Source: Cohnella sp. OV330 (GTDB lineage: Bacteria; Bacillota; Bacilli; Paenibacillales; Paenibacillaceae). From it: 64,000 bases of DNA. The notes below the pieces were generated by a model. The model made no database searches, had not been told where the DNA came from, and saw only the letters and a program-made list of their open reading frames with translations. Below, one piece after another: positions 43,263-50,468 of the stretch. The stretch covers positions 40,672 to 104,671 of the forward strand of contig NZ_FOKE01000009.1 in NCBI RefSeq assembly GCF_900112065.1, read 5' to 3'. Position numbers and translations under genes: made by a program. Positions within the stretch are counted from its first letter, which is position 1. Every line of letters starts with the position of its first letter.

Positions 43263-43688
43263 ATGAACAGCGAATTTATTATTGCCGTACACAGTCTGGT
43301 CCTGCTCGCGCACAAGCCGGACGGCATGGCGTCGAGCGAAGAGATCGCGGCCAATGTCTGCACGCATCCGGCGCGGGTGCGGAAGGTACTCGGTTTCTTG
43401 CGAAAAAACGGCTACGTGACGACGCGCGAAGGCTCGGGCGGCGGATACAGGCTCTGCATCGATCCTTCGGACATGACGCTGGCGGATATTTACCGGACGA
43501 TGGCGGCCGGCGCGATCACGCCGAACTGGTGCAGCGGCAATCCGGATATGGACTGCATGGTCGGTTCCAATATGCAGGAAGTGATGAATTCCGTGTTCTG
43601 CGGCGCCGAGAAGCAGCTCGAGAGCTATTTCCAGGGGATTACGATCGGTCAGATGCTGTCGCGCATCAAAGCGTGTCAGAAGACTTAG
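43263..43688 (+). CDS. Rrf2-family transcriptional regulator
   Basis: 141 residues. Winged helix with NSEFIIAVHSLVLLA at the N terminus, recognition helix THPARVRKVLGFLRKNGYV and the family's GSGGGYRL wing. Four cysteines are present (about 36, 97, 105 and 120 from the start, with a WCSGNPDMDC pair); their spacing is not that of the IscR or NsrR cluster, so it is closer to YwnA-type regulators with thiol or unknown sensing. GAAAGGGG lies before the ATG. It precedes a thioredoxin gene by 146 bp, in the same direction. Confidence 0.88.
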   Translation: MNSEFIIAVHSLVLLAHKPDGMASSEEIAANVCTHPARVRKVLGFLRKNGYVTTREGSGGGYRLCIDPSDMTLADIYRTMAAGAITPNWCSGNPDMDCMVGSNMQEVMNSVFCGAEKQLESYFQGITIGQMLSRIKACQKT

Positions 43689-43834
43689 CCGCGGGTAAGG
43701 TTCGTTGTGCGCTCCGCGCGCGGGATGGCAGCAGTCGCAGGATGGAGCGGACCGGAGCCATGGCGCTTCGTCGTCCGATCATCATATAGGAACGATATAC
43801 AGAATTCATTAAACCTCTGAAGGAGTGGATTACG

Positions 43835-44146
43835 ATGGCCGTAGTCGTAACGAAGGACAACTTTAACGAGACCGTTAGCGAAGGCGTGTCTCTGCTTGAT
43901 TTCTGGGCGCCGTGGTGCGGACCTTGCAAAATGCAGCTCCCGATCGTCGAAGAACTGTCGTCCGAGCTTCAAGGCACGGCGACGATCGCCAAGGTGAACG
44001 TCGACGAGCAGCCTGAGCTGGCTTCCCAATTCGGCGTCATGAGCATCCCGACGCTGATCCTGTTCAAGGATGGCCAACCGGTCGACAAGCTGGTCGGTCT
44101 GCAAAGCAAGGATTCCCTGAAGGCCAAGATTCAAAACCAGCTCTAA
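43835..44146 (+). CDS. trxA: Thioredoxin
   Basis: 103 residues with the active site WCGPC (Cys28, Cys31), the Lys after it (CKMQ) and the cis-Pro in SIPTL. Cytoplasmic disulfide reductase. The residue after the active site motif is KMQ where most TrxA proteins have KMI or RMI. GAAGGAG lies ten bases before the ATG. It may be controlled with the rrf2-type gene upstream, or be a second thioredoxin copy; the sequence does not decide. Confidence 0.95.
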   Translation: MAVVVTKDNFNETVSEGVSLLDFWAPWCGPCKMQLPIVEELSSELQGTATIAKVNVDEQPELASQFGVMSIPTLILFKDGQPVDKLVGLQSKDSLKAKIQNQL

Positions 44147-44163
44147 TCGAGCCTGCTACGCGA

Positions 44164-44201
44164 ACAAGCACCCCGTCCAAGGACGCGGTGCTTGTTTTTT
44201 T
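44164..44201 (+). terminator. Terminator of trxA
   Basis: ACAAGCACC and GGTGCTTGT arms with an inner CGTCC/GGACG pairing, then a seven-base T run. Confidence 0.95.
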
Positions 44202-44254
44202 GAGCGGATCAGAGCATATGCGTTAGAAGGGCTGGAGCTTCCCGGATGATGTTG

Positions 44255-44450
44255 CGGGTCGAATAACTGCGTTTTTACACTTATTTTTTTACCGTATAGC
44301 GACGCTTTATGAAATAAATGCAAAAGTGCAGTTAAATTCAAAGAATGCACGATAATCAGGCTTAATTGGGGATTTAGATGCGTTTTTGCATCTATCCCTT
44401 CTAAAAGGGTCGAGTTCGGTTAAATTAGGTGCATTTTTGCATTTATTACG
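44255..44450. repeat. Four AT-rich hairpin units between convergent genes
   Basis: Related dyads of the form TAxxTGC-GTTTTT-GCAxxTA are centred near 44273, 44325, 44384 and 44434; the second is inverted and reads ATGCAAAAGTGCA. Spacing is about 50-60 bp, less strict than in the other arrays. The sequence is far more AT-rich than its neighbours. It fills the gap between trxA and the convergent lipoprotein gene. No open frame of note. Confidence 0.65.
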
Positions 44451-44499
44451 GCGAAGGATCAACGGGGGCGAGGCATAAGAATACGCCCATGCTGCCGTA

Positions 44500-45201
44500 C
44501 TAAATTGTCCACTGCGCATGCGTCAGGGCGACCAGCCGCCAATCGCTGCCGTTCTGCACGAACGTAAGGATCAAGCTCTCCCAATCCATGCCGTCGGCGG
44601 AGTCGTCGAAGCCCGGGAAGTGGAATTCCACGAAGGCCGAGCCGGGATACGTATCTTGTCCGTTGTAGACGGAATTGCCTTTGCCGACGAGCTTGTTCGC
44701 GGAGATCGACGGGGCGGTATCGAAGTCCTTGTCGTACACGAACTTGTCGAAGTAATCGCGGAAGGACAGCTCGATCGGATCGCCGCTGCCGTCCGCCGTG
44801 CCCCATTTGATCTTGTCCTGGCTCTTGAAGGAAGGCAGCGCTTCGGGCTTGAATATTCGATCCGTCTCCGTCATCGCGGCGTAGGGCGAAAAGCGAAGCC
44901 CGAGCTTCGGATCGATCCACGAGGAAAGGCGCTTCAAATCGCGGTCGCGGAGCGCCTCCACGACATCCTTGGCCGCGGCGGACAGCGCCTTTTGGGAATC
45001 GGACGGAGCGGCGGAAGCCGAGGATGAGGATGAGGCCGTCGCGGCGGAGCCTTCGGATGGCGTTGAATCGGTTTGCGAAGCGACGGGAGTGCCCGAAGTC
45101 GCCGACGGAGCGGCATTGCGATCGTCGTTGCCTCCGCCGCATCCGGCCAGCAGCGCCACGGCGAGCAGCATGGCGAAGTATGGGAGCATCCTGGGTTTCA
45201 T
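44500..45201 (-). CDS. Lipoprotein of unknown function
   Basis: 233 residues. Lipobox LAGC (Cys21), then a low-complexity Ser/Ala/Thr linker (about 22-70), then a compact domain from about 72 on with SWIDPKLGLRFSPYAAM and a C-terminal WRLVALTHAQWTI strand. The domain pattern resembles small extracellular NTF2-like or sensor domains, but I do not recognise the family. AGGAGG lies nine to ten bases before the ATG. It is divergent from the Met-rich lipoprotein gene across 271 bp and convergent with trxA. Confidence 0.8.
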   Translation of the reverse strand: MKPRMLPYFAMLLAVALLAGCGGGNDDRNAAPSATSGTPVASQTDSTPSEGSAATASSSSSASAAPSDSQKALSAAAKDVVEALRDRDLKRLSSWIDPKLGLRFSPYAAMTETDRIFKPEALPSFKSQDKIKWGTADGSGDPIELSFRDYFDKFVYDKDFDTAPSISANKLVGKGNSVYNGQDTYPGSAFVEFHFPGFDDSADGMDWESLILTFVQNGSDWRLVALTHAQWTI

Positions 45202-45375
45202 GATGTATAACCTCCTAGAAGAGATACGGAATTTAGCTCTTTTTTAAATTCGTATATCTTAGACGCAAAATGTCGCCGGATGTTCCGGTGCGGGGGCACG
45301 AATATTGGGATAAATAAAGCGCGCGAGGCGTTGGGAATCCTAGGTAACCACGGCTTTTCCGGTCGTAATGCTTTC

Positions 45376-45424
45376 GTAAGATTCTTTTAAGCCTTTCGTT
45401 GAAAATCGGTTAGCGGTTCGTTAG
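45376..45424 (+). promoter_or_regulatory. Five 11-bp-phased direct repeats, probable OmpR-family regulator site
   Basis: GTAAG (45376), TTAAG (45387), GTTGA (45398), GTTAG (45409) and GTTAG (45420) are spaced exactly 11 bp apart, one helical turn, 49 bp before the Met-rich lipoprotein start. OmpR/PhoP-type response regulators bind such tandem sites as head-to-tail dimers. The regulator is probably the two-component system encoded downstream. Confidence 0.65.
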
Positions 45425-45472
45425 GCCTAAGCGGTACCCTGAGATCATAACGGATCGGGGAGGAGCATCATC

Positions 45473-45886
45473 ATGAACAGAACAAGGGTGGAAAAATCGG
45501 GCAAGCCGCTCTGCCTGCTGCTGGCGACCGCTGCGCTGGCGGCTGCGCTGGCGGGATGCGGAACGGACAAGGCGAATGACAATCCGCCGATGCCGTCGGC
45601 AAGCATGAAGAATGACGGCATGATGTCGCCGGAAGCGAGCATGAAGGACGACGGCATGATGTCGCCGGAAGCGAGCATGAAGGACGACGGCATGATGTCG
45701 CCGGAAGCGAGCATGAAGGACGACGGCATGATGTCGCCGGAGGCGAGCAAGAAGAGTGACGGCATGATGTCGCCGGAGGCGAGCAAGAAGAGTGACGGCA
45801 TGATGTCGCTGGAGGCGAGCATGAAGGACGACGGCATGATGTCGCCGCAGGCGAGCATGAAAGAAGGCGGCATGGGCGAAAAGTAA
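45473..45886 (+). CDS. Met-rich repetitive lipoprotein
   Basis: 137 residues. Signal peptide ends in LAGC (Cys29). The mature part is seven near-identical 12-residue repeats, consensus DGMMSPEASMKD, and contains 22 Met in about 109 residues, with no Cys after the anchor. Copies 4 and 5 have KKS in place of MKD. Met-rich exported proteins can bind copper or act as methionine sinks for hypochlorite-type oxidants; the next genes encode a two-component system and a YedY/MsrP-type enzyme, which makes the oxidant-sink idea attractive but unproven. The repeats recall the Met-Lys-Asp pentapeptide repeat proteins of Proteobacteria. GGGGAGGAG lies eight bases before the ATG. Confidence 0.85.
   Translation: MNRTRVEKSGKPLCLLLATAALAAALAGCGTDKANDNPPMPSASMKNDGMMSPEASMKDDGMMSPEASMKDDGMMSPEASMKDDGMMSPEASKKSDGMMSPEASKKSDGMMSLEASMKDDGMMSPQASMKEGGMGEK
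45614..45865 (+). repeat. Seven 36-bp coding repeats
   Basis: In-frame tandem repeat inside the Met-rich lipoprotein gene. Copies differ by few bases, so copy number may vary between strains by slippage or recombination. Confidence 0.9.
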
Positions 45887-45949
45887 GCGTAACAATTCGC
45901 GCTGGCGGCTGTGCTATAATCTGGTTAATCGAATGAAGGAGAGATCTGG

Positions 45950-46671
45950 ATGGCAGCAACGGTGCTGGTCGCGGACGACGAGCGGGATATTACCGACGTC
46001 TGCCGCAGATATCTGGAACGCGAAGGGTTCGAGGTGCTCGTCGCGGACGACGGCGATCAGGCGCTGCGGCTCTGGCGGTCGAGACGCCCGGATCTGCTCG
46101 TGCTCGACCTCATGATGCCGGGCATGTCTGGTTGGGACGTCTGCACCGCCGTTCGCGACGAAGAGGACGTGCCGATCATCATGCTGACCGCAAGGGGAGA
46201 GGAGAGCGATCGGCTGCTCGGCTGCTCGGCTTGACGCTTGGCGCGGACGATTACTTGACCAAGCCGTTCAGTCCACGGGAGCTTGTGCTGCGCGTACGCA
46301 ACATTTTGCGCCGCGCGGCGCCTCCCGCGGAACCCGCCGACAAGCCGGCGCCAAGGGAAGAAGGCCTTCACTTCGAAGGCCTTTCCCTTTATCCGGCACA
46401 GCGCAAGGTGAAGGCGGGCGACCGGGTCGTGGAGCTCACGGCTATCGAGTTCGATCTCCTCGAATGGTTCGCGCGCCATCCGGGACAGGTCTTTTCAAGA
46501 AGTCAGCTGCTGAGCCGGGTGTGGGACATCGCGTTCGAAGGCGATTCGACCACGGTCACCGTGCACATGCGCAGGCTGAGGGAGAAGATCGAGCCGAACC
46601 CGTCCAAGCCGGCATGGCTGAAAACGGTATGGGGCATCGGCTACCGGTTCGAAGGGCAGCCCGCCGAATGA
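45950..46671 (+). pseudogene. OmpR-family response regulator, frameshifted by an 8-bp duplication
   Basis: The first part (45950-46234) encodes a receiver domain with Asp9-Asp10 and phospho-acceptor Asp53 in VLDLMMPGMS, then stops early after RLLGCSA. The second part continues in another frame from LLGLTLGADDYLTKPFSPREL to a complete winged-helix domain ending GYRFEGQPAE. The break is a tandem CTGCTCGG (46214-46221 and 46222-46229). Removing one copy restores a 237-residue regulator with normal spacing between the receiver Thr/Lys motifs. This may be a natural loss, phase variation or a sequence error. The end overlaps the kinase start (ATGA). GGAGAG precedes the ATG. Confidence 0.88.
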
Positions 46672-47771
46672 AGGGCCGGACGGTAAGGCTGCGCACCTAT
46701 CTTCTGATATCCAATGCCGTCAGTTTGGGCGCTATTTTAGCCGTATTGTTCTATTGCTACAGCCGCATGCTGCTCAGCGCGCCGACGTTCATCTGGCTGG
46801 GCGGGGCCACGCTGCTGGCCGGAGGCTTGTCGTTCATCCTCCACTTCGTGCTGGTCATGCCGCTTGCCCGCGCGGCGAACCGGATCGGCGAAGCGTCCGG
46901 CAGAATCGCTTCCGGCGAGCTCGGCACGGAGGTGCCGATCGTAGGACCAGCCGAATTCCGACTGCTGGCGGAACGGTTCAACGCGATGAGCCGGCAGCTT
47001 AAAGCCAGCTTCGACCGGCTGACTAAGTCCGAGGCATCGCGCAGGGAGCTCGTGGCGAACGTCGCGCACGATCTGCGCACGCCGCTCGCGCTGCTGCAGT
47101 CCCACTCCGAGGCGCTGCTGGACGGCGTCGTCGACGACGAGGACGCGCGTGGCGATTACCTTCAGGTGATCCGAAAAGAATCGGTACGGCTCGGGCGTCT
47201 CGTCCAGGATCTGTTCGATCTGTCGAAGCTGGACGCCGGCGCAGACCCTTTTGAGCCTCGGCCCGCGGCGCTCGAAGACGTGCTGATCGATACGTTGAAC
47301 GTCTACAGGCCCAAGCTGGAGGAGAAAAATCTGGAGGTCGTCGTAAGGCTCCCCGAACCGTCTCCGGTCGTGTGGGGCGTCGAGAGCGAGCTGCGTCGGA
47401 TCGCGGCCAATCTGCTCGACAACGCGATTCGGCATTCCCCGAACGGAGGATGCATCGAATGGCGGGCGACGATCGGGGACAGCGGCATGGTCGCGGTCGC
47501 ACTCAGGGACGAAGGGGACGGCGTGCCGGAGGAGGAGCGGGAGCGAATCTTCGAGCGCTTTTACCGTTCGGATCGAAGCAGGCGACGCGAGAGCGGGGGC
47601 GCCGGTCTCGGTCTCTCGATCGCCAGGTCGCTGACGGAGCGGCACGGCGGCGAGATCGGCGTGGCGCCTGCGGGCGACGGAGGAAGCGAATTTCGATTTA
47701 CGCTGAAGCTGGCCGACGCCGGAAGCGGTGCGGCCCTCGGACGGAGGAGGGACGAAGATGAAGGAGCGTAA
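46668..47771 (+). CDS. Sensor histidine kinase with minimal extracellular loop
   Basis: 367 residues. Two membrane helices (about 12-32 and 41-63) joined by only some eight residues, so it probably senses within the membrane or through a partner. HAMP (about 64-116), dimerisation/phospho-acceptor His134 in NVAHDLRTPL, and ATPase motifs NLLDNAIRHSP, DEGDGVPEE and GAGLGLSIA. Partner of the regulator just upstream (4-bp overlap) and 14 bp overlapping the molybdoenzyme gene. If the regulator is really broken, the kinase has no dedicated output here. Confidence 0.92.
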   Translation: MKGRTVRLRTYLLISNAVSLGAILAVLFYCYSRMLLSAPTFIWLGGATLLAGGLSFILHFVLVMPLARAANRIGEASGRIASGELGTEVPIVGPAEFRLLAERFNAMSRQLKASFDRLTKSEASRRELVANVAHDLRTPLALLQSHSEALLDGVVDDEDARGDYLQVIRKESVRLGRLVQDLFDLSKLDAGADPFEPRPAALEDVLIDTLNVYRPKLEEKNLEVVVRLPEPSPVVWGVESELRRIAANLLDNAIRHSPNGGCIEWRATIGDSGMVAVALRDEGDGVPEEERERIFERFYRSDRSRRRESGGAGLGLSIARSLTERHGGEIGVAPAGDGGSEFRFTLKLADAGSGAALGRRRDEDEGA

Positions 47772-49029
47772 ACGGGCGGGCTTCGGCAAGCAGCTGGCGG
47801 AGCTGCACCGCTGGAATGCATGGCTGGTCGTCGTGCTGGCGATCAGCGGATTGATCCTGTCGTGGGGCGCGGCGAGGGGATGGCTGGGCGAGGGGCGCGT
47901 CTGGATCAAGCAGCTCCACATCTACATCGGTCTCATCACGGGCATCGTGCTCGTCCTTTACGCGCCGCTGCTCAAGCGACATCTGAAGCAGCTTCGGGGC
48001 AGGCAAGGGCAGCGAGGCAATCTGGCGTTCGTCGTCTTCCTGCTGCTCGGCTGGCTGGCGTCGGGCATCGTGCTCTGGCAGCTGCGCCACCTGCCGCCCC
48101 GCTGGGCGACGAACGCGCTTGTCGTCCACGATCTGTTGACGTGGGTGGGCTTGCCGTACGCGGCGTATCACTCGATCACCCGAATGCGTTGGGCGAAAAA
48201 GCCGCAGCGGCGCGCCGTTCGAACGGATGAGGGGGCTGCGGCAGCGGCAGGCTCGGACACGAAGCGTCCGTATGCCGGCGGTCTGCATCCGGCCGCGAGC
48301 CCGCAGCCGTGGATGACGCGCCGCCAGTTCATCCGGAGCGCGGTCGGCGTGGCGCTGGCCGCCGCGGTGCTGCCGTCCTTTTTCCGCTGGATGGGCGGCA
48401 GCCTGAGTCTGACCTCCGGCTCGGGCAGCATCGCCGCGGACGAGACGGATGCGAACCGTATGCTTCCTGCGCCGCAGCCGCTGCCGGACTCGGCGAACGT
48501 CATCGGCGGCGGCGCGAAGGGCAGCTTCCGCCTCTACACGGTGACGCCGCTCCCGCATTTCGACTCGGATACTTGGCGCTTCACGGTCGACGGCCTGGTC
48601 GACAAGCCCGCGACGTGGACATGGGAACAATTTCTTGCGATCAAGCGCAAGGTACAGGTCAGCGACTTTCACTGCGTCACCGGCTGGTCGGTGTACGGCA
48701 ATACTTGGGAAGGCATCCCGCTCTCGCAGATCCTGGACGCGGCAGGCGTGCAAGCGAGCGCGCAGTACGTGAAGTTCTACTCCGGAGACGGCGAATATAC
48801 GGACGCCCTTTCCCTCGAGCAAGCGCGAATGAAGGACGTCCTGGTCGCCGTGCTCCACGACGGCAAGCCGATTCACCGGGATTACGGCGGTCCCGTCCGC
48901 CTTATCGTGCCGGGCATGTACGCGTACAAATCGGTGAAGTGGCTGGACCGCATCGAGCTGATCGACCGGCCCCATATCGGATATTGGGAAGAACGGGGCT
49001 ACGACAACGACGCATGGGTGAAGGCCTAA
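47758..49029 (+). CDS. Cytochrome b-like / YedY (MsrP)-type molybdopterin oxidoreductase fusion
   Basis: 423 residues in two parts. Residues 1-145 form four membrane helices with histidines at 17, 54, 124 and 138 placed to bind hemes. After a linker comes an internal Tat-like signal MTRRQFIRSAVGVAL (186-200), a fifth helix and a sulfite-oxidase-fold domain (about 255-423) with the Mo-ligand Cys306 in FHCVTGW and GGPVRLIVPGMYAYKSVKW. In E. coli MsrP (YedY) this domain reduces methionine sulfoxide in exported proteins with electrons from the separate membrane protein MsrQ; here a membrane electron carrier appears fused. GGAGGAGG lies seven bases before the ATG. The substrate is not proven; sulfite or other S/N-oxides are alternatives. 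Confidence 0.87.
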   Translation: MKERKRAGFGKQLAELHRWNAWLVVVLAISGLILSWGAARGWLGEGRVWIKQLHIYIGLITGIVLVLYAPLLKRHLKQLRGRQGQRGNLAFVVFLLLGWLASGIVLWQLRHLPPRWATNALVVHDLLTWVGLPYAAYHSITRMRWAKKPQRRAVRTDEGAAAAAGSDTKRPYAGGLHPAASPQPWMTRRQFIRSAVGVALAAAVLPSFFRWMGGSLSLTSGSGSIAADETDANRMLPAPQPLPDSANVIGGGAKGSFRLYTVTPLPHFDSDTWRFTVDGLVDKPATWTWEQFLAIKRKVQVSDFHCVTGWSVYGNTWEGIPLSQILDAAGVQASAQYVKFYSGDGEYTDALSLEQARMKDVLVAVLHDGKPIHRDYGGPVRLIVPGMYAYKSVKWLDRIELIDRPHIGYWEERGYDNDAWVKA

Positions 49030-49058
49030 TCGCCTTCACCCTTTCGCTCCCGCTCCGT

Positions 49059-50468
49059 TTATTCGGATTTGCCTGCCTTGTCCGTCTCGTCCGCGCCGTC
49101 GGCTTGAACCTCCGACAGCGCTTTTTTCATGAGCGCCTCCGCCCCGGACTGGATCGCCCCGAACGCCTTGTCTTCCGTTTCCTTGTTCTCCACCACGTTT
49201 CGGATATGCCCGTTCACGAGCTCGGCGAACGAGGTGTCGAAGCTGCCGGGCCCTTGCGGCTCGCCATAATAATAACGATCGATCGTATTCGTCGGCCGCA
49301 GCGCGTAGAACGGCTTGTAGTCCGGGTCTTGCTTCCACTCGGGATAGTCTGCCTGAACGGACAAGTCCATGCCGCCGAGCGTGCCGCCGAGCGCGGCTTT
49401 GGCTTGACCGACGTGCGCCGACATGAAATAGGAGAGTACCTCCCAAGCTTCCTCGGCGTGCGACGCGGAGACGGGGATGGCGAACACCTCGTACATCTGC
49501 AGCTCTCCGCCGAAGGCGGGGTCGGAGCTGCGGGCGGGCGCCGTGACGACGCCCCAATCGAACTTCGGCTTGCCTGACTTGAGATTCGTCATCAGATTGT
49601 CGTCGTCGATCGTAATCGCCGCTTTGCCTTGCTTGAAGAGATCGACCGCCTCCATCGCCGCCTGATCATAGTAGGTCCGGCCGTCCGACTCCCTCGCCTC
49701 GGGCCAAGTGGCGACGAACGTGCCGCGCTTGTAGGCGGCGGCGACCTGCTTGAACAGACGCTCCCAGCCCTGCGAATCAAAGGTGACCGCGCCGGTCTTG
49801 GCGTTCGCGTAGGTCAACCCTTCGTTGCCGGCGATACGCTGCAGCAGGTCGAACGGGCCGCGGAGCCAAGGGATATGCAGTCCGACCTCGCCTTTTTCAA
49901 GCCGCTTGTCCTGCATGACGCGGTCGGCCAGCGCGATCGTCTGCTCCCAGTTCATGCCGTCCGTCGGGTAGGGAATGCCGAGGCGATCGAATATATTCTT
50001 GTTGTAATACATCGCGCTGGCGTGGAAGCCCGGGCCGATCCCGTAGAGCGGGCCGCCTTCCTCGCCGCGAAGGAAATCCAGCACGCCCGGCGTCACGGCA
50101 TCGTTCAGCTTCGTTTTCTTCTGCGCGGCCCATTCCTCCAGGTTCTGGAGTTTATCCGCTTTGCGCATCAGGCTGTAGTCCGGGACGTTCAAAATGAGCA
50201 GGTCCGGCTTTTCTTTGTCCATAAAGGCGGCCAGCGTCTTTTCGTCGTAGGCTTTATAATCGTTGTCCGCCTGCATCGGTACGAAGCGGACGTCCCAGTC
50301 GGGGAAGCCGGCTTCGATAAAGTCCCTGAATTGCATGTCGTACGTGTAGTTCTGGCAGCAGGCGACGGTGAGCGTCTTCGGCAGGTCTTGGGTTTGCGCG
50401 CTCTTCGTGCACCCTGCGGCGATTGCAAGCAGGACGGAGAGCGCCATCAGCGCGGCAAGCCGCCTCAT
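49059..50468 (-). CDS. Extracellular solute-binding lipoprotein
   Basis: 469 residues. Lipobox AAGC (Cys20), then a family 1 solute-binding fold: ADLLIL-type strand PDLLILNVPDYSL, GIGPGFHASAMYYNKNIFDRLGIPYPTDGMNWEQTI (core YYNKNIFDRLG) and C-terminal EEAWEVLSYFMS. Such proteins deliver sugars or oligosaccharides to ABC importers, but no permease or ATPase is nearby. Its start overlaps the stop of the sensor-like gene (50465-50468), so it is the third gene of the sigma factor operon. A role as co-sensor or ligand donor is inference. Confidence 0.88.
   Translation of the reverse strand: MRRLAALMALSVLLAIAAGCTKSAQTQDLPKTLTVACCQNYTYDMQFRDFIEAGFPDWDVRFVPMQADNDYKAYDEKTLAAFMDKEKPDLLILNVPDYSLMRKADKLQNLEEWAAQKKTKLNDAVTPGVLDFLRGEEGGPLYGIGPGFHASAMYYNKNIFDRLGIPYPTDGMNWEQTIALADRVMQDKRLEKGEVGLHIPWLRGPFDLLQRIAGNEGLTYANAKTGAVTFDSQGWERLFKQVAAAYKRGTFVATWPEARESDGRTYYDQAAMEAVDLFKQGKAAITIDDDNLMTNLKSGKPKFDWGVVTAPARSSDPAFGGELQMYEVFAIPVSASHAEEAWEVLSYFMSAHVGQAKAALGGTLGGMDLSVQADYPEWKQDPDYKPFYALRPTNTIDRYYYGEPQGPGSFDTSFAELVNGHIRNVVENKETEDKAFGAIQSGAEALMKKALSEVQADGADETDKAGKSE

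Follow-up and report, generated by a model that had tools for sequence, protein, structure and literature searches.

Within a 64,000-nucleotide stretch of the genome of the soil bacterium Cohnella sp. OV330 (contig NZ_FOKE01000009.1, positions 40,672 to 104,671; hereafter the window, whose own numbering is used throughout), we examined a block on the forward strand at 45473-49029 that encodes a methionine-rich (Met-rich) lipoprotein, a response regulator, a histidine kinase, and a fused haem b/molybdenum-cofactor enzyme whose nearest named relative is found in Cohnella ginsengisoli (95% identity). Since the frame ends of the regulator, kinase and enzyme overlap, these genes appear to form one operon (Table 1). 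A sequence-only reading of the window had proposed the block as a possible oxidant-defence module; below, the make-up of its components and their linkage to one another in other genomes are used to assess a role in defence against methionine oxidation.

Table 1. Features of the Met-rich lipoprotein, two-component and fused-enzyme block (window coordinates; aa, amino acids).
Feature	Position	Strand	Description and basis
Six 11-bp direct repeats, in one register	45363..45428	+	TCGTAATGCTT TCGTAAGATTC TTTTAAGCCTT TCGTTGAAAAT CGGTTAGCGGT TCGTTAGGCCT
Met-rich lipoprotein	45473..45886	+	137 aa; mature 109 aa, 22 Met, 12-residue repeats ASMKDDGMMSPE
Response regulator, receiver part	45950..46234	+	PF00072 to residue 88; alignment with four relatives
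Regulator remainder (receiver end and DNA-binding domain)	46235..46671	+	other frame, inside ORF 46132-46671; PF00486
Histidine kinase	46668..47771	+	367 aa; HAMP PF00672, HisKA PF00512, HATPase_c PF02518
Fused haem b/molybdenum-cofactor enzyme	47758..49029	+	423 aa; PF00174, family alignment, predicted structure
Four-helix membrane part of the enzyme, residues 8-146	47779..48195	+	alignment and model
Internal twin-arginine motif R188-R189-Q-F, before the fifth helix	48319..48330	+	alignment
Molybdopterin-binding domain	48547..48987	+	PF00174 at residues 264-410; alignments

The composition claimed for the lipoprotein, 22 Met in about 109 residues, was confirmed: the mature part starts at Cys29, following a lipobox (LAGC, assigned by eye), and contains one Cys and no His. 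Its gene consists of 7.7 tandem copies of a 36-bp unit. Applying a threshold of at least 8 Met in 50 residues to exported open reading frames (ORFs) of at least 50 and up to 270 aa, we found the lipoprotein to be the only exported Met-rich ORF among the 363 ORFs of the window, the sole further Met-rich ORF being its own antisense, and this uniqueness rules out mis-annotation or chance as its origin. Counterparts occur in the same place in relatives, and the proteins beside the two-component system (TCS) range widely in repeat number and Met content (59-207 aa), with Lys in place of Met in some repeat copies of the counterpart at locus L033. No match to the NCBIfam model for MXKDX repeats (TIGR02953; cut-off 41 bits) was found for the window protein at E 0.1. 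Four of eight relatives match that model weakly, the best being a Paenibacillus counterpart at 37.9 bits, below the cut-off; as the sequences are of low complexity, these matches are likely the result of convergence.

The sensor kinase and regulator named in the sequence-only reading differ in state. The kinase is complete, carrying HAMP, HisKA and HATPase domains, and together with an OmpR-type regulator matches the composition of HprSR-type systems, with its profile aligning to HprS from helix 2 onward only. HprS has a periplasmic sensing part, whereas the alignment of the window kinase indicates two membrane helices with only a few residues between them outside, and no such part. All 61 kinases compared have Met34 where helix 1 ends on the outer side; because Escherichia coli HprS is activated through methionine oxidation, according to a review (PMC13367049), this residue can be put forward, as a guess by analogy, as a candidate for oxidant sensing. 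The regulator, in turn, is broken, a defect which had been overlooked: its frame ends after 94 aa, within the receiver domain, owing to an extra 8-bp tandem copy near 46210-46231 that is absent from the four near relatives aligned (L033, L034, L065 and L056). The ORF containing the remainder is 91% identical over 158 aa to the regulator of L033, which is intact and possesses both PF00072 and PF00486, and the regulator is also intact in L034 and L065. At L056 (Cohnella rhizosphaerae) the duplication is absent, no normal regulator frame is present, and the enzyme frame is shortened to 353 aa. The break in the window genome is either an assembly error or a true mutation.

For the enzyme, a fusion between a YedY (MsrP)-type domain and a membrane haem module had been proposed. 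The fusion itself stands, with four helices preceding the PF00174 domain in alignments and in the predicted structure (mean pLDDT 78, pTM 0.65), and the assignment to MsrP does not, the enzyme scoring 74.3 bits with the NCBIfam MsrP model against a cut-off of 207; SoxC scores 75.5 bits, a practical tie with both far below cut-off. In the membrane part, His17, His54, His124 and His138 are invariant and are presumed to be haem b ligands because of the description of Sco3746 (PMC5449189), a protein of similar architecture. In the internal twin-arginine motif, R188 is invariant in 70/70 aligned enzymes and F191 is conserved in at least 90%. Cys306 (codon 48673-48675), within FHCVTGWS, aligns with the cysteine of the MsrP motif RCVEAWS, and this molybdenum-ligand Cys is likewise present in 70/70 enzymes. 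Identity with E. coli MsrP amounts to 31% over 143 columns, including PVRLIVP..Y..K, and the basic residue preceding S/G-V/I-K, K391, is Lys as in MsrP, where plant sulfite oxidase has Arg and SorA has Tyr. Pfam searches detected PF00174 alone at E 0.001, and no molybdenum-cofactor (Moco) dimerisation domain. The aligned Cys306, Lys391 and the dimerisation domain not found are points in favour of a methionine sulfoxide (MetO) reductase.

MsrP is a separate soluble protein with an N-terminal twin-arginine translocation (Tat) signal and an MsrQ partner, unlike the window enzyme, whose twin-arginine motif is internal and follows four helices. The fused membrane part had been taken to replace MsrQ; kinship to MsrQ was not detected (probability 0.4%), leaving it at most an analogue. 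Because the MsrP score lies far below cut-off, solved sulfite dehydrogenases score best, and no MsrQ kinship is apparent, we do not file the enzyme as MsrP. By its predicted architecture, compared by description, it belongs with the Sco3746 family, which consists of dual Sec-Tat heme-molybdenum membrane proteins with homologues in firmicutes (Tooke et al. 2017, PMC5449189) and shares with the window enzyme the helices with conserved His, the internal twin-arginine motif, the fifth helix and the C-terminal Moco domain. Downstream of the fused enzyme at L060 (8132-11135) lie genes for MobA-like (PF12804), MoaA-like (PF04055 and PF06463) and MoeA (PF03453) proteins of molybdenum-cofactor synthesis, which fit a molybdenum enzyme.

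To place the block in its family, we searched 197 Paenibacillaceae genomes, of which 147 match the enzyme at 1e-10, short PF00174 paralogues included, and examined the surroundings of 121 enzyme loci (the window and L065-L184) together with an overlapping set of 29 named GTDB loci (L033-L061). Linkage was counted at the 104 of the 121 loci whose upstream flank reached 2.6 kb or more, the other 17 having flanks too short, and an exported Met-rich ORF was scored if it shared the strand of the enzyme and lay no more than 3.3 kb before it. Regulator and kinase were identified upstream of the enzyme at 32 of the 104 loci. A Met-rich ORF accompanies 24 of these 32, against none of the 72 loci without the TCS (Fisher 4.5e-17, kinship ignored); one locus counted among the latter, L148, carries both a TCS and a Met-rich gene on the downstream side of its enzyme and shares its genome with L214. 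On a tree of 103 enzymes (L184, with its short reading frame, was left out), the TCS label changes 16 times, 8 of them forced by well supported branches. Across 8 independent pairs the Met-rich label follows the TCS in a mean of 4.8, is unchanged in 3.2 and moves oppositely in 0, a sign test that is weak with so few pairs (median p 0.06). In Cohnella relatives the cassette is flanked by a divergent lipoprotein gene on one side and the enzyme on the other; L035/L066 (enzyme 85% identical) lack the cassette, and there 133 bp separate the start of this lipoprotein gene from the enzyme. Based on these counts and on L035/L066, the Met-rich gene, regulator and kinase have therefore mostly been gained or lost together.

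The linkage extends beyond the family. A class-wide search of 398 genomes, family included, yielded 49 with an enzyme match at 1e-45. Fifteen of the 49 lie outside the family, and 16 stretches from them were examined, some of which end at contig ends. Two of these (L247 and L248, from one genus of another family) possess the components in the order regulator, enzyme, kinase, Met-rich protein, and in a third (L245) a kinase is followed by the enzyme; no kinase of this family was found in the remaining 13. The co-occurrence of the parts, on the failure of which the sequence-only reading would have abandoned its proposal, is thus conserved far beyond the window genome.

Two further neighbours of the enzyme were recorded. 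The divergent lipoprotein gene, at 44500-45201 of the window, has no Pfam match and in Cohnella relatives remains adjacent to either the cassette or the enzyme. At 43263-44146, 3.6-4.5 kb before the enzyme, a thioredoxin gene and the gene of an Rrf2-type regulator are also present, the latter reaching 82 bits with the HypR model (cut-off 180). The two genes precede the enzyme at 32 of the 121 family loci, at some of them closely and without the TCS (e.g. L107 and L118), and constitute a second, alternative redox neighbour of it.

The strongest indication of substrate was obtained from the kinase. Using a profile built from 29 kinases, and scoring the ten best candidates per genome in the 197 family genomes, we found one match each at 1e-75 in 62 genomes. 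Thirty-five of the 62 kinases (at least 536 bits) lie within 2 kb of the fused enzyme, and 23 (418-484 bits) lie elsewhere, defining a sister TCS, for all of which about 3 kb on each side was examined. A Met-rich exported ORF adjoins the sister TCS in 22 of 23 cases, either before the regulator or after the kinase, and MsrAB is present in 16, all 16 with a redoxin lipoprotein and 15 with a CcdA-like protein; the fused enzyme occurs in none of the 23 stretches. Pfam searches on examples identified MsrA and MsrB (PF01625, PF01641) in two, and CcdA (PF02683; DsbD_TM) with Redoxin in one. On a tree of 61 kinases the 35 fused-enzyme kinases form one side of a branch with a support of 100. Three kinases found beside the fused enzyme in other families fall on the MsrAB side, a placing that is weak given long branches and open forks; their position implies that the exchange of reductases may have occurred more than once. 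Left out of this tree were four distant kinases (group C, 273-289 bits) completing the 62, one of which lies with CcdA, a thioredoxin and MsrAB, and none with a Met-rich ORF. At L210, a more distant kinase lacking a Met-rich ORF sits beside genes for a small membrane protein (DoxX-like by eye), CcdA, a thioredoxin-like protein and MsrAB, perhaps an older state of the MsrAB operon.

The Met-rich partners of the two operon types also differ. In the sister TCS the partner is Sec-exported, with a Cu_amine_oxidN1 domain (PF07833) in all five tested (L185, L188, L192, L193 and L200), and beside the fused enzyme in Paenibacillaceae it is mostly a lipoprotein. A PF07833-type Met-rich protein is encountered beside the fused enzyme as well (L060:5263-5841, L081:5233-5706 and L248:8379-8966), so that, judged from gene neighbourhoods, the two kinds are interchangeable. 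Since MsrAB, an established MetO reductase, takes the place of the fused enzyme beside the same sensor and Met-rich protein, MetO is suggested as the substrate of the latter. This exchange is the best evidence for that substrate, and it lends strong indirect support to the link with methionine sulfoxide drawn in the sequence-only reading.

The two operon types also have upstream sequence in common, with approximately TCGTAAG recurring every 11 bp before the Met-rich gene. In the window the six direct repeats are presumed to be a binding array for the OmpR-type regulator. An 18-bp pattern of two units was devised with the upstream regions of both types, including that of the window, already in view, and its enrichment is accordingly descriptive. 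At the repeats it fits exactly, with no other site in the window when 2 mismatches are allowed (0.04 expected by chance), and this is its single exact occurrence in the whole genome of 7.47 Mb. With 3 mismatches allowed, it was detected at 19 of 26 fused-enzyme (type A) and 17 of 22 sister (type B) loci, falling to 14 and 6 with 2 allowed; the strand outside, about 0.69 Mb, yielded 2 sites, and of 88 regions preceding enzymes that lack the TCS, 3 contained it. Autocorrelation, which is less biased than the pattern and was run with a letter-shuffle control on rows that include related sequences, gave best-window identities at lag 11 of 0.49 for Paenibacillus type A (n=15), 0.47 for Cohnella (n=5) and 0.40 for the MsrAB type (n=12), against 0.35, 0.33 and 0.35, respectively, in shuffles (sd 0.01 to 0.02). 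The MsrAB type shows the smallest excess, and in it lags 22 and 23 exceed lag 11 (0.44 and 0.41). Unguided motif models of width 44 recovered a direct-repeat motif in the MsrAB type, but in each of the other two sets they converged on conserved sequence nearby. A simple scan of 44100-49400 for sigma-70-like promoters returned 0 (1.4 expected by chance).

Taken together, these findings lead us to consider, with a probability of about 0.72, that the block is a two-component-controlled defence against methionine oxidation at the outer face of the membrane. This reading is backed by the gene make-up, the conserved linkage, its persistence in another family where the genes are rearranged, the exchange with MsrAB, and the common repeats. 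The lipid-anchored Met-rich protein would act as a sacrificial oxidant sink, its Met being converted to sulfoxides and envelope proteins thereby shielded. Electrons from the membrane, probably from quinol, would pass through haem b to the extracytoplasmic molybdenum site of the fused enzyme, which would reduce MetO in the sink and perhaps also in other envelope proteins. The kinase may sense oxidation of the membrane or the sink, and would cause the regulator to bind the 11-bp repeats that precede the Met-rich gene. Given that one kind of sensor-and-sink pair occurs with two reductases unrelated to each other, the most likely activity of the fused enzyme is MetO reduction outside the cytoplasm. 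A bolder version, which we put forward only tentatively and regard as doubtful, would have the regulator, the kinase lacking a sensor domain and the Met-rich protein form a portable unit that recruits either of two unrelated reductases, the quinol-driven molybdenum enzyme or the thiol-driven MsrAB, to carry out one and the same chemistry; here the Met-rich protein would serve as signal as well as sponge, its oxidation being read through the invariant Met of kinase helix 1.

Several observations weigh against a defence of this kind. The fused enzyme mostly lives without the TCS and Met-rich ORF, 72 of 104 enzymes having neither in the scored place, and L096, which has no TCS, carries an exported Met-rich ORF 4.5-4.9 kb upstream, outside that place. 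By threshold, 8 of the 32 TCS loci are without a Met-rich ORF: three of them (L076, L106 and L152) have a shorter Met-containing lipoprotein below 8 Met in 50 residues, and no Met-containing lipoprotein was found at the other TCS loci L070, L083, L090, L151 and L158. Seven of the 23 sister systems have no MsrAB nearby and thus neither reductase, and in the window genome itself the regulator gene is broken. Among enzymes of solved structure, the best relatives by sequence are sulfite dehydrogenases and not MsrP, and after the Cys-Val of the active-site motif MsrP has Glu where the fused-enzyme family has Thr. Finally, the repeat pattern is unspecific genome-wide at 1-2 mismatches. In the window genome it has 2 sites at up to 1 mismatch and 10 at up to 2, against 6 for a reversed control. 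In 15 relatives, allowing 1 mismatch gave 10 matches, fewer than the 16 of the control; 4 of the 10 (in G184, G178, G104 and G049) lie at the operon by their coordinates. As looser matches are not clearly above control, a wider regulon is not claimed.

The evidence was also considered in light of other functions for the block. In a defence against copper, the Met-rich lipoprotein would bind Cu(I), the TCS would sense copper and the enzyme would keep the Met reduced, resembling MsrPQ and CusF in E. coli. Met-rich proteins do bind Cu(I), and the other type of Met-rich protein has a Cu_amine_oxidN1 domain, a Pfam name that is in itself no proof of copper binding. The usual Cu(I) motifs are MxM or MxxM, however, and the Met of the window repeat are spaced by 5, 1 and 6 residues, in a mature protein without His. 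No copper ATPase, oxidase or chaperone was noticed by eye in the loci whose ORFs were viewed, no family search having been made for these, and the best NCBIfam matches of the kinase are WalK (218 bits) and PnpS (215), against 161 for the heavy-metal sensor subfamily. Hence, despite the precedent of E. coli msrPQ, which is copper-induced through CusSR and repairs CusF in the available text of that study (PMC9302797), we regard a role in copper defence as unlikely.

It is similarly improbable, and if anything slightly more so, that the enzyme is a sulfite dehydrogenase or another sulfoxide or N-oxide reductase, with the Met-rich protein and TCS serving merely as a general stress cassette. The solved relatives, the near tie between the SoxC and MsrP models, and the many enzymes occurring without the cassette would all suit this proposal, whereas the dimerisation domain not found, the Lys at position 391 and the choice of MsrAB as the cassette's other partner argue for MetO. 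The variable repeat number and Met content of the lipoproteins, including the Lys substitutions at L033, might further suggest a surface filler or Met store with no redox role, its linkage reflecting co-inheritance. This we consider very improbable, as the linkage survives both a change of gene order and the exchange of enzymes, and two unlike exported scaffolds are Met-rich beside the same TCS family, even together with the fused enzyme (L060, L081 and L248).

A defence based on methionine oxidation has parallels in described systems, compared here on the available text of the cited reports. The Sco3746 paper sets its family beside MsrP/MsrQ as distant homologues, and the text available gives no substrate, Met-rich partner or TCS, in which it departs from the window set (PMC5449189). 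In E. coli, HprSR-MsrPQ resembles the block in placing a TCS beside a Tat-exported, membrane-fed molybdenum MetO reductase, and differs in using two polypeptides, with an MsrQ lacking detectable kinship to the fused membrane part (PMC9302797, PMC13367049); between hchA and zinT of E. coli (L260), no Met-rich protein is annotated. All three functions are combined in OrhKR with C3566-C3568 of uropathogenic E. coli, comprising a TCS, an MsrPQ-like pair and a small Met-rich peptide; it is Gram-negative, with separate polypeptides, a periplasmic peptide and a reported response to H2O2 (PMC8550376).

The sink peptides of Azospira and Brucella are periplasmic and not lipid-anchored, and Azospira MrpX-YedY1 is under the control of an extracytoplasmic function (ECF) sigma/anti-sigma pair. 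As a parallel to the window block, a Met-rich peptide, proposed as a sink for hypochlorous acid (HOCl), lies beside an MsrPQ pair in both Azospira MrpX-YedY1 and Brucella BcrXQP (PMC8315932). The Brucella peptide has an MXKDX repeat, and its locus, unlike the window, has ECF sigma/anti-sigma control and no TCS in the text of that report (PMC8315932). The sister TCS has its own likenesses: in Fusobacterium a TCS next to MsrAB governs defence (ModRS-MsrAB-Trx-CcdA), in a five-gene locus of which a molybdenum enzyme is not part and for which the available text mentions no Met-rich protein (PMC9239216), and pneumococcal CcdA-Etrx-MsrAB corresponds to the same MsrAB type (PMC3914529). In Bacillus cereus, recycling of exoprotein Met by MsrAB has been proposed as an antioxidant strategy (PMC5526929).

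The sequence-only reading had met no description of the set in Firmicutes. In the open-licence Gram-positive literature searched, too, no description was found of a Met-rich protein, this TCS and either the fused enzyme or MsrAB together; the one-polypeptide enzyme, in contrast, is already known in firmicutes from the Sco3746 family (PMC5449189). What we have not found in print is thus the regulated Gram-positive set and its swap of reductases, the enzyme architecture and the sets of Proteobacteria being known. The unusual feature, as judged from gene content, is that one sensor-and-sink cassette is common to two unrelated reductases. Evidence from outside the block strengthens the function read from the sequence, whereas HOCl as inducer, the comparison with MsrQ and a working state of the window copy find no support.

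These results provide an avenue for assigning a function to the Sco3746 family, which spans several phyla and has no substrate in the literature covered, and for which the exchange with MsrAB offers a testable one, extracytoplasmic methionine sulfoxide. A kinase with almost no external domain also represents a simple case for oxidant sensing at the membrane. If the proposed defence is correct, the sink-and-repair strategy of Proteobacteria would extend to Gram-positive bacteria, with the sink anchored by lipid, and these genomes would offer a natural experiment on two unrelated repair chemistries placed under a single regulatory cassette.

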